NCBI GenBank assembly: GCA_030834125.1
Contig: JAURFW010000011.1
Span: 1 to 64,000, forward strand
Reading direction: 5' to 3'
Origin: Bacteroidota bacterium
GTDB taxonomy: Bacteria > Bacteroidota > Bacteroidia > NS11-12g > UBA955
DNA length: 64,000 nt
Of this stretch, positions 5,481-9,856 are shown one piece after another; positions within the stretch are counted from its first letter, which is position 1; every line of letters begins with the position of its first letter. The position numbers were made by a program, and so were the translations under genes. The notes beneath the pieces were generated by a model. That model had not been told where the DNA came from. It did no database searches and was given only the letters and a program-made list of their open reading frames with translations.

Positions 5481-6149
5481 CTATAAATTGTTTGTGGAAG
5501 AATTATCTGTTTTAGATTCAGAGGATTGTTTTGAGAGAATTATTGACGGTGAAGGAAGGGTAAACCATTTTTGGGCTATAATCATTATTGCTACGCCAAC
5601 TGTTATACAAGCATCAGCAAAGTTCCAAATTGGTGCGAAAAATACAAAATGTTCACCGCCAATAAACGGAATCCAATCCGCAGGAACACCTTCATAAATA
5701 GGGGCATAAAACATATCTACTACGTGGCCCTCGAACCAAGTAGCGACATATCCATTAATATCATCAAAAACAACACCATAAAAGATAGAATCAATAATAT
5801 TTCCAATAGCACCTGCAAGTACCAAAGCCAAAGATATAATTAGTCCTTTATGATAGTTGCCTTTAATAATTGAAACCAAATAAACTATTCCAAAGGCTGA
5901 AACCAGTATTCGGAAGAAAGTGAGGATTAGTTTCCCTACTTTACCGCCTCCAAAAAGTTTCATTCCAAAGGCCATGCCTTCGTTTTCAATAAAGTATAAC
6001 TTAAACCAATTCTCAAATAAAGTAAAAGACTCTCCGTAAATGAAGTGAGTCTTTATATAAATTTTAATAATTTGATCGATTAATACTGCACCAATTAATA
6101 CAGTAAAAGCCAATATCCAACGGTTTCTACTAGTTTTTAGAGATTCCAA
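5481..6149 (-). CDS. lspA: lipoprotein signal peptidase (signal peptidase II), Bacteroidota long form
   Basis: 222 residues, against about 165 in E. coli. It is an inner-membrane aspartyl protease that removes signal peptides from lipidated prolipoproteins. Four hydrophobic segments are visible. The catalytic aspartates correspond to D145 (GHVVDMF) and D179 (FNFADA), with the conserved GNIID at 116-120. The extra length lies in two periplasmic insertions: about 16 residues between GNIID and VVD, and about 15 between VVD and NFAD. A polar tail also follows residue 200. The start codon lies 2 bases after the DksA-like gene's stop, in the ileS operon. Confidence 0.96.
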   Translation of the reverse strand: MESLKTSRNRWILAFTVLIGAVLIDQIIKIYIKTHFIYGESFTLFENWFKLYFIENEGMAFGMKLFGGGKVGKLILTFFRILVSAFGIVYLVSIIKGNYHKGLIISLALVLAGAIGNIIDSIFYGVVFDDINGYVATWFEGHVVDMFYAPIYEGVPADWIPFIGGEHFVFFAPIWNFADACITVGVAIMIIAQKWFTLPSPSIILSKQSSESKTDNSSTNNL

Positions 6150-6151
6150 AA

Positions 6152-6529
6152 TTAACGCTTAATTTTAGCTTCTACAGTTTGGGTAGTGTGTGGAACCAGT
6201 ATTAATCTTTCTTTGGGAATAAGCTTTCCAGTGGTTTTGCATACACCATAGGTTTTATTTGAAATTCTTACCAAAGCAGCCTCTAAACTTTTGATAAATT
6301 TTAATTGGTGTGCAGCCAACTGATTTAAACTTTCTTTCTCTAAGGTCTCCGCACCATCATCTAAAGTAAGGTAATTATTATTTGAAGAATCTGCACCACT
6401 TCCATCACCATCTTTTAATTGACCCTGTAAAGTTCTAAACTCAGATTTTGCCGAGTCCAATTTCTTCATAATTATGGCTCTGAACTCTTCTAATTCAGCA
6501 TCGGTGTAACGGGTTTTTTCTCTTTCCAT
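6152..6529 (-). CDS. DksA/TraR-family protein with degenerate zinc finger
   Basis: 125 residues. It has an N-terminal coiled-coil region (about 8-40) and an acidic linker. The ending is DksA/TraR-like, YGVCKTTGKLIPKERLILVPHT, but only one of the four usual zinc cysteines remains (C97). The family binds the RNA polymerase secondary channel and alters promoter response to ppGpp; that role is inferred here. Metal-free versions occur in other bacteria. It sits between ileS (gap about 18 bases) and lspA (2 bases), an order common in Bacteroidota and probably one operon. Confidence 0.9.
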   Translation of the reverse strand: MEREKTRYTDAELEEFRAIIMKKLDSAKSEFRTLQGQLKDGDGSGADSSNNNYLTLDDGAETLEKESLNQLAAHQLKFIKSLEAALVRISNKTYGVCKTTGKLIPKERLILVPHTTQTVEAKIKR

Positions 6530-6547: not shown

Positions 6548-9500
6548 TTAACTTTTTATAATTTTCAAAAATAGGGGTTTTTCGTATACTTCTGTTTGAA
6601 GTTCTGTTACTGAATCGTTAAACGAAATACTTGACGCAAGTACTTCAGAGGCAATATATTGCGAAAAATTAAATGCACTTTCTTGAAGCTCTGAATCACC
6701 AGAATATTCAATTTCTATATGGTCTGTAACTTCAAATCCAAGTTCTTTTCTGAGGTTTTGAATTCTATTTACCATTTCACGTGCAATACCCTCTTGTTTT
6801 AACTCATCAGTAATATTAATATCAAGTGCAACGGTCGTATCACCTTCACTACTAACTAACCATCCTGGCATATCTTGTGTAGATAATTCAATTTCGCTAA
6901 TGAGAATTTCTTGGATTTCACCGTTTACATCTATTTCAATTTTCCCTTCAGATTCAAGAATTTGAATCTGTTCTTTGTTTAACAATTGAATTGCATTTCC
7001 AACCACCTTCATTTTAGGACCAAGTTTTTTACCAAGTACCTTAAAGTTGGGTTTAACTTTTTTAACTAAAAGTTGATTGTCTGCTGAAAGGAATTCAATT
7101 TCTTTAACATTTACCTCAGAAAGAATAATATGTTTTACGGCATTTAATTCTTCTTCCATTTTGGGATTTAAGATGGGAATTAATATTTTTTGTAATGGTT
7201 GACGTACCTTAATTTTCTCTTTTTTACGAAGTGATAATACGAGACTACTTACAAGTTGCGCCCTTGCCATTTTCGATTCTAGATCGGTATCAATCCAACT
7301 TCTATCAACTTCAGGCCAGTCTGTTAAATGAACAGATTCTACTTCACTGCCTTGATGAATTTTATGGTTATTTAAAGCGCGGAATAACCAATCTGAGAAG
7401 AAGGGTACAACCGGAGCAATAATTTTAGAGAGGGTATTTAAGCAAGTAAATAGAGTATCATAAGCAGCGAGTTTATCTTCGTTTAATTCACCTTTCCAAA
7501 AGACTCTTCTTGACAAACGAACAAACCAGTTACTGAGTTCTTCACCAACAAATTCTTCTATCAATCTTGATCCTTTTGTTGGATCATAGTCATTCAATGA
7601 ATTGGTTACCTCACTTACTAATGAGTTTAACTTACTCATAATCCATCTATCTAACTCACTTCGATTTTCTTTATTAATTGTTCTATTCGAGTCAAACTGA
7701 TAATTATCAATATTGGCATAGATTGCAAAGAATCCATAAGTATTATAAAGGGTACCTAAGAATTTTCTTTGCGACTCTTGCACGCCATCTAAGTCGAATT
7801 TTAAATTATCCCAAGGTTGTGAATTAGTTGACATATACCAACGAACGGCATCTGCTCCAAATTTATCAACTGTGGTAAACGGATCAATTGCATTGCCAAG
7901 TCGTTTACTCATTTTATTGCCGTTTTTATCTAGTACTAGACCATTGGCAATTACATTTTTAAATGCTACACTATCAAAAAGCATAACACCCAGCGCATGA
8001 AGTGTGAAGAACCAGCCTCTAGTTTGATCCACTCCTTCTGCTATAAAGTCAGCAGGGAAGTTAGAATTGAAAATATCATCATTTTCAAATGGCCAGTGCC
8101 ATTGTGCATAAGGCATTGCACCACTATCAAACCAAACATCTATTAGGTCAGTTTCTCTTTTCATTGGTTTACCTGAAGGGCTAACCAACGTAATATCATC
8201 TACAAAAGGACGATGTAAATCGAAGGAGTCTTTATCTACAGTTTGATTTAAGCCTAATGATTGGTTTGCATTTTCAATTTCCTCAACTAATTGGTTTATA
8301 CTTCCGATACAAATTTCCTCTTCTTGGTCTTCTGTGCGCCAAATAGGCAAGGGTGTTCCCCAATATCTAGATCTACTTAGATTCCAATCTACAAGATTCT
8401 CCAACCAGTTTCCAAATCTACCTTCACCTGTACTTTTGGGTTTCCAATTTATGGTTTTATTTAGCTCTACCAAACGATCTTTAACAGCCGTAGTTTTGAT
8501 GAACCAACTTTCTAATGGATAGTAAAGTATTGGTTTATCTGTTCTCCAACAATGCGGATAAGTGTGCTCATAACGTTCAACTTTAAATGCTTTATTTTCA
8601 GTTTTTAGTTTAATGGCAATTCTCTCGTCAACGCTTAGGTATTTATCACGTCCTTGAATTTCAATTTCTGTATTTTTTTCGTCTTCAGATAGATATGCTT
8701 CCTTAACGAATTCACCTGCAAAATCAATTACCTCCTCTACAAATTTTCCTTCTTTATTAACAAGGGTTAAACTACCAATTCCATTTTGCTTGCAGGTTCT
8801 AAAGTCATCTGCTCCAAAACTTGGTGCTAAATGTACAATACCAGTACCATCTTCAGTACTAACAAAATCGCCGATTACAACTCGAAATGCATCACCATCT
8901 GTAGGTTGGGTATAAGGCAAAAGTTGTTCGTATTTAGTGCCTTCTATGTCTTTTCCGATGATGGTTTTAATGATTTTCCAAGGAAGTTGTTTACTTCCAG
9001 GTTCATATTCATCAAATGATATATTTTCATTTTCAGCGTTGAAGAATTTATGAATTAAATCCTTCGCTAATGTCACGATAATTTTATCTCCAGTGTAAGG
9101 ATTAAAGGTTTCAACATCCACATATTGAATTCTTGCTCCAACTGCTAATGCTGTATTACTTGGTAAAGTCCAGGGTGTGGTTGTCCAAGCAATGAAATAT
9201 TCATTTTCTGTTCCTACTTTTTTAAACTGGGCTACAACCGTAGTGTCTTTAACATTTTGGTAAGTACCAGGTTGGTTTAACTCATGTGAACTTAATCCCG
9301 TGCCGGCAGCAGGTGAATAAGGCTGAATGGTATATCCTTTATACAAAAACCCTTTATCGTAGAGCTTTTTTAATAAAGACCACAGGGTTTCTATATATTC
9401 ATTTTCGTAGGTTACATAAGGGTTATCTAGATCAACCCAGTAACCAATTCTTTTAGTTAAATCATCCCAAGTATCCTTAAACTTAAGGACATCTGTTCTA

Positions 9501-9856
9501 CATTCTTTATTGTAATCAGCAACAGAAATTTTAGTTCCAATATCGTCTTTTCGAATTCCTAATCTTTTTTCAACCTGAAGTTCAATTGGTAATCCATGAG
9601 TATCCCATCCTCCTTTTCGCTCTACTTTATAACCTTGTTGGGTTTTGTATCGACAGAATATGTCCTTCATTGCGCGTGCCATTACGTGATGTATACCGGG
9701 CATTCCATTAGCTGAAGGAGGACCTTCAAAGAAGGTAAATGAGCGATTTGCAGACCGACCATTAATACTTTTTTGGAAGATTCCTTTTTCCTCCCAAAAT
9801 TGAAGAATTTCTTTTTCAATTTCGGGCCAATTCATCTGCGCTAATGTTTTGTACAT
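6548..9856 (-). CDS. ileS: isoleucyl-tRNA synthetase, type 2 (IleRS2) with swapped GIHH motif
   Basis: 1102 residues; charges tRNA-Ile in the cytoplasm. The Rossmann core carries the class I signature KMSKR at 648-652, and a CP1 editing domain lies at about 190-420. The C-terminal region is long and lacks the CxxC zinc fingers of E. coli-type IleRS, which marks the eukaryote-like IleRS2 group. The usual HIGH motif reads G54-I55-H56-H57 (context ANGMPGIHHVM), so its first and third residues are exchanged. That GxHH form has been tied to very strong mupirocin resistance in some IleRS2 enzymes. It heads the ileS-dksA-like-lspA operon; a TATTTTTG box lies 26 bases before the ATG. Confidence 0.97.
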   Translation of the reverse strand: MYKTLAQMNWPEIEKEILQFWEEKGIFQKSINGRSANRSFTFFEGPPSANGMPGIHHVMARAMKDIFCRYKTQQGYKVERKGGWDTHGLPIELQVEKRLGIRKDDIGTKISVADYNKECRTDVLKFKDTWDDLTKRIGYWVDLDNPYVTYENEYIETLWSLLKKLYDKGFLYKGYTIQPYSPAAGTGLSSHELNQPGTYQNVKDTTVVAQFKKVGTENEYFIAWTTTPWTLPSNTALAVGARIQYVDVETFNPYTGDKIIVTLAKDLIHKFFNAENENISFDEYEPGSKQLPWKIIKTIIGKDIEGTKYEQLLPYTQPTDGDAFRVVIGDFVSTEDGTGIVHLAPSFGADDFRTCKQNGIGSLTLVNKEGKFVEEVIDFAGEFVKEAYLSEDEKNTEIEIQGRDKYLSVDERIAIKLKTENKAFKVERYEHTYPHCWRTDKPILYYPLESWFIKTTAVKDRLVELNKTINWKPKSTGEGRFGNWLENLVDWNLSRSRYWGTPLPIWRTEDQEEEICIGSINQLVEEIENANQSLGLNQTVDKDSFDLHRPFVDDITLVSPSGKPMKRETDLIDVWFDSGAMPYAQWHWPFENDDIFNSNFPADFIAEGVDQTRGWFFTLHALGVMLFDSVAFKNVIANGLVLDKNGNKMSKRLGNAIDPFTTVDKFGADAVRWYMSTNSQPWDNLKFDLDGVQESQRKFLGTLYNTYGFFAIYANIDNYQFDSNRTINKENRSELDRWIMSKLNSLVSEVTNSLNDYDPTKGSRLIEEFVGEELSNWFVRLSRRVFWKGELNEDKLAAYDTLFTCLNTLSKIIAPVVPFFSDWLFRALNNHKIHQGSEVESVHLTDWPEVDRSWIDTDLESKMARAQLVSSLVLSLRKKEKIKVRQPLQKILIPILNPKMEEELNAVKHIILSEVNVKEIEFLSADNQLLVKKVKPNFKVLGKKLGPKMKVVGNAIQLLNKEQIQILESEGKIEIDVNGEIQEILISEIELSTQDMPGWLVSSEGDTTVALDINITDELKQEGIAREMVNRIQNLRKELGFEVTDHIEIEYSGDSELQESAFNFSQYIASEVLASSISFNDSVTELQTEVYEKPLFLKIIKS

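Follow-up and report, generated by a model that had tools for sequence, protein, structure and literature searches.

Introduction

In type 2 isoleucyl-tRNA synthetases (IleRS2), the first and third residues of the class I signature motif HxGH can change places: in a prokaryotic set of 163 such enzymes, 86 carried G/AxHH and 77 carried HxGH, while no IleRS1 carried the exchange (Brkic et al., 2023; PMC10485003). The natural ALHH enzyme of Deinococcus radiodurans is inhibited by mupirocin with a Ki of 6.6 mM, a value 823-fold lower once the motif is changed to HVGH, and the introduction of GVHH into the IleRS2 of Thermus thermophilus or Priestia megaterium raises the Ki by about 200-fold or more (PMC10485003). 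Natural GxHH enzymes were reported to pay little catalytic cost, and the authors inferred antibiotic selection from at least two origins of the motif in IleRS2 and from a modelled steric clash with the drug. The main text of that study describes the motif as widespread; the word stem “Bacteroid” is absent from it. Here we describe an IleRS2 with such a motif encoded in a draft genome of the phylum Bacteroidota, and its distribution in the phylum. The window referred to below is the whole stretch of 64,000 nucleotides that was analyzed.

Results

The ileS gene of the window is an open reading frame on the minus strand (6548–9856) for a protein of 1102 aa, of which EGPPSANGMPGIHHVMARAMKD is the motif-bearing passage. 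The features of the locus are as follows.

5481–6149, minus strand: lspA, lipoprotein signal peptidase II (Pfam PF01252), a conserved neighbor of ileS
6152–6529, minus strand: TraR/DksA-type zinc-finger protein (Pfam PF01258), the next gene downstream of ileS and its conserved neighbor in Bacteroidota
6548–9856, minus strand: ileS, type 2 isoleucyl-tRNA synthetase (IleRS2), 1102 aa, identified by TIGR00392, Pfam and solved relatives
6566–7132, minus strand: C-terminal DUF5915 domain (Pfam PF19302), residues 909–1097, without zinc CxxC fingers, as expected for IleRS2
7901–7915, minus strand: second class I motif, KMSKR, residues 648–652
9686–9697, minus strand: class I signature motif GIHH (G54-I55-H56-H57), residues 54–57, identified by gap-free alignment and phylum-wide occurrence

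The protein is a full-length IleRS, scoring 989.2 bits against the ileS profile TIGR00392 (cut-off 621.4), and its Pfam domains are tRNA-synt_1, Anticodon_1 and DUF5915. In a phmmer search of solved structures, the top matches were four P. megaterium IleRS2 entries, followed by the T. thermophilus IleRS; the best of them (8c8w, 858 bits, E = 6e-257) stood far above the IleRS1-type entries, at about 240–330 bits. The last 250 residues hold no CxxC, as against CPRC and CGRC in the IleRS1 of Escherichia coli. The assignment to type 2 and the lack of C-terminal zinc CxxC fingers, both proposed in the original prediction, are borne out by the DUF5915 domain, the solved relatives and the CxxC check.

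The same prediction had read the HIGH motif as swapped to GIHH and had called for an alignment with IleRS sequences and for a search for a second ileS. In phmmer alignments with the IleRS2 of P. megaterium and T. thermophilus, G54 is aligned to the first His and H56 to the Gly of HVGH with no gaps; “gmpgihh” of the window enzyme is paired with “glphvgh” and, in 8c8w, with “glpgvhh”, where GVHH marks that entry as the engineered GVHH form of the P. megaterium enzyme. A pattern check of the whole 1102-aa protein found no further H.GH string. The enzyme therefore belongs to the GxHH IleRS2, with Gly or Ala first and His third in the signature motif, and the predicted swap, placed at 9675–9720, was read exactly; that interval encloses the motif. 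The KMSKR predicted at 648 was found at residues 648–652; this form occurs in 103 of 106 Bacteroidia homologues, and KMSKS in most homologues from other classes.

Residue S48 (9713–9715 of the window) occupies the position of Tyr59 of E. coli IleRS1, which has been linked to pre-transfer editing and for which Phe or Thr is reported in eukaryote-like enzymes (PMC4861432). Each of the 106 readable Bacteroidia homologues has Ser at this position, and those of other classes have Thr. The window enzyme also contains no CxxC pair at all, the zinc-type region concerned being residues about 180–516. The IleRS2 of Sutcliffiella, Acetoanaerobium and Rhodococcus have CPxC or CSRC, CWRC and further CxxC pairs; CWRT and zero CxxC were observed in 109 of 109 Bacteroidia homologues, and at least two CxxC are kept in 8 of 29 homologues from other classes. 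In Bacteroidia, the catalytic part of IleRS seems to have lost its zinc-type sites.

The source genome is a 2.3 Mb draft of 94 contigs, 98% complete, in which the profile search gave one match above the ileS cut-off and found no second ileS; the weaker matches in other open reading frames are presumably other class I synthetases. The view that this is the sole housekeeping ileS thus held. The order ileS, traR/dksA, lspA recurs in records of Parabacteroides and Riemerella.

Apparently normal ileS genes were also met in plasmid-labelled records of Parabacteroides, Riemerella and Prevotella (L188, L189 and L193), and in the first two the usual neighbors lie beside the gene. These were considered as mobile GxHH resistance genes and rejected as such: because two of them stand in the normal traR/dksA, lspA context, the two are taken for secondary replicons or for chromosome fragments filed under the wrong label, and not for resistance plasmids; for the plasmid-labelled records as a whole, an assembly artefact or a secondary replicon may be the explanation. 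In G171, one of the sampled genomes of the phylum, the GxHH IleRS2 motif stands at two places (C1:44012 and C10:603), reflecting either a duplicate ileS or contamination. Outside the phylum, the ileS on plasmid pTML1 of Pseudoalteromonas sp. SANK 73390 (L190) reads F-A-T-G-K-P-H-H-G-H, so that x of the motif is itself a His; pTML1 carries the biosynthesis of thiomarinol, a mupirocin-like compound.

Relatives came from two sources, members of the same order and matches in a scan of the GTDB contig collection. Counting the window's own locus, the motif could be read at 110 loci and was GIHH at every one, as it was in all 106 readable proteins of the full-length Bacteroidia set. For the phylum, 396 genomes were searched at the DNA level with a pattern for P-x-(A/V)-N-G-x-P-(G/A)-x-H-H, and the [G/A]xHH motif was present in 393 of them, including every one of the 372 genomes with completeness of 90% or more and contamination of 5% or less; the three genomes with no match are 81–88% complete. 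The canonical pattern P-P-x-(A/V)-N-G-x-x-H-x-G-H gave no match in any of the 396. In controls, the latter pattern detected the ileS of E. coli and Paenibacillus and missed the HAGH enzymes (Sutcliffiella and mupA), so that an enzyme of the HAGH type could escape it; the finding that all good-quality genomes carry GxHH does not rest on that pattern. A narrower first pattern for IleRS2 had produced apparent exceptions, 30 of which were followed up: 28 proved to have V-N-G instead of A-N-G and still GxHH, and the remaining two were split hits with no readable motif in the fetched piece, both matching the wider GxHH pattern. The original prediction had also called the motif an unusual active-site variant, which does not agree with 393 of 396 genomes of the phylum and 86 of 163 published IleRS2 carrying the swap.

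In a maximum-likelihood tree of 40 rows, the members of the phylum form one clade (support 99/97) in which all enzymes are GxHH. Outside it lie the canonical enzymes of Sutcliffiella and Paenibacillus and mupA, as well as the GxHH enzymes of Acetoanaerobium and Rhodococcus, the last on a long branch that makes its placement unsure.

Discussion

The window enzyme resembles the natural G/AxHH IleRS2 of Streptomyces griseus and of D. radiodurans (ALHH) in its type and in the exchange of HxGH positions one and three; it differs from these enzymes of other phyla in combining GIHH and KMSKR without any CxxC pair. The closest solved relative, matched over nearly the full length, is the P. megaterium IleRS2 with its GVHH mutant (PDB 8c8u, 8c8v and 8c8w), but HVGH is the natural motif of that enzyme, and P. 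megaterium has an IleRS1 besides, whereas the genome of the window has IleRS2 only. The plasmid-borne MupA and MupB of staphylococci are of the IleRS2 family as well. With 804 and 793 bits on their models, against cut-offs of 1900, the window protein is not an acquired MupA or MupB; in addition, it is encoded by the one ileS of its genome, among conserved neighbors. The mupA motif, HAGH, follows the canonical pattern, in contrast to the GIHH of this single housekeeping copy. The IleRS1 of E. coli shares with the window gene its activity and the ileS-lspA neighborhood and, unlike it, has a HIGH motif and C-terminal CxxC pairs and is of the mupirocin-sensitive type.

The best explanation, to which we assign a probability of roughly 0.93, is that the window encodes the sole housekeeping IleRS of its organism, an IleRS2 with the known GxHH motif that has been inherited vertically in the phylum, with H56 as the catalytic His and with hyper-resistance to mupirocin. 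Motif, enzyme type, single copy and the near-complete fixation of GxHH among the sampled genomes of the phylum are direct observations; by analogy with the characterized enzymes, we infer the catalytic role of H56 and the hyper-resistance. As described for other IleRS2, the third-position His would supply the catalytic imidazole that normally comes from the first His; the shifted helix tip of IleRS2 leaves space for it beside the adenine. Mupirocin would push the motif back, the third His would then clash with the drug, and the Ki would be expected in the high-micromolar to millimolar range. GIHH thus probably gives the window enzyme extreme resistance to mupirocin, and resistance of the organism itself would be predicted.

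Mupirocin often penetrates Gram-negative cells poorly; whole-cell resistance alone would therefore not implicate the motif. Literature searches yielded no mupirocin Ki or MIC tied to the GxHH motif in the phylum. In a paper on a Bifidobacterium and a Bacteroides strain, the isolation medium contained mupirocin at 50 mg/L (PMC9022498), which fits a target-based cause without proving it, as poor uptake could explain it too.

The alternative with most weight concerns why the motif is there. It may be an ancestral marker of the lineage, kept by descent and drift, for which mupirocin-like antibiotics never selected, resistance being a by-product. Near-fixation in the sampled phylum and the single clade fit one ancient change that has since been kept, and the low catalytic cost of natural GxHH enzymes points the same way, but the repeated origin of the motif in IleRS2 and the modelled mupirocin clash were read by Brkic et al. 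(PMC10485003) as signs of antibiotic selection. We put this explanation at somewhat under an even chance; it is at odds with the hyper-resistance reading over the reason for the motif only, and is compatible with its biochemistry.

The GIHH enzyme could also be an accessory, resistant second IleRS in an organism whose canonical, sensitive housekeeping copy was missed in the assembly. Both IleRS types coexist in some bacteria, and a draft in 94 contigs at 98% completeness leaves some room for a missing gene; yet the genome search found only the one ileS, no canonical motif appeared in any of the 396 genomes, including many with a completeness of about 100%, and the gene lies in the conserved ileS-traR/dksA-lspA neighborhood, which together make this very improbable. 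Even less credit is due to a sequencing or assembly error, or to a misalignment that masks a normal HxGH: identical GIHH at all 110 readable loci excludes a sequencing slip, and the gap-free alignment and the lack of any other H.GH in the protein refute the rest. The reading as a vertically inherited, hyper-resistant housekeeping enzyme is accordingly preferred. The original prediction stands in its motif, enzyme type, single copy and link to resistance, the last resting on published work (Brkic et al., 2023; PMC10485003), and finds no support for the supposed rarity of the variant. Motif and mechanism were already published in 2023; the resistance reading is known and ordinary for the phylum, and still the best one.

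What is new here is the near-complete fixation of GxHH across the sampled phylum, since the motif in IleRS2 at large was already known. Virtually all Bacteroidota, taking the phylum in the broad sense, are likely to have the GxHH IleRS as a fixed feature, so that mupirocin hyper-resistance of the target enzyme would be an ancestral trait of the phylum. A swap in the most conserved motif of class I synthetases is then no rarity, but a stable, phylum-wide state of a housekeeping enzyme. If the inference holds, mupirocin would have no use against Bacteroidota as an agent acting on this target, and annotation pipelines that automatically label such ileS genes as resistance genes, as in Ornithobacterium (PMC10835994), would be describing an ancestral rather than an acquired trait.
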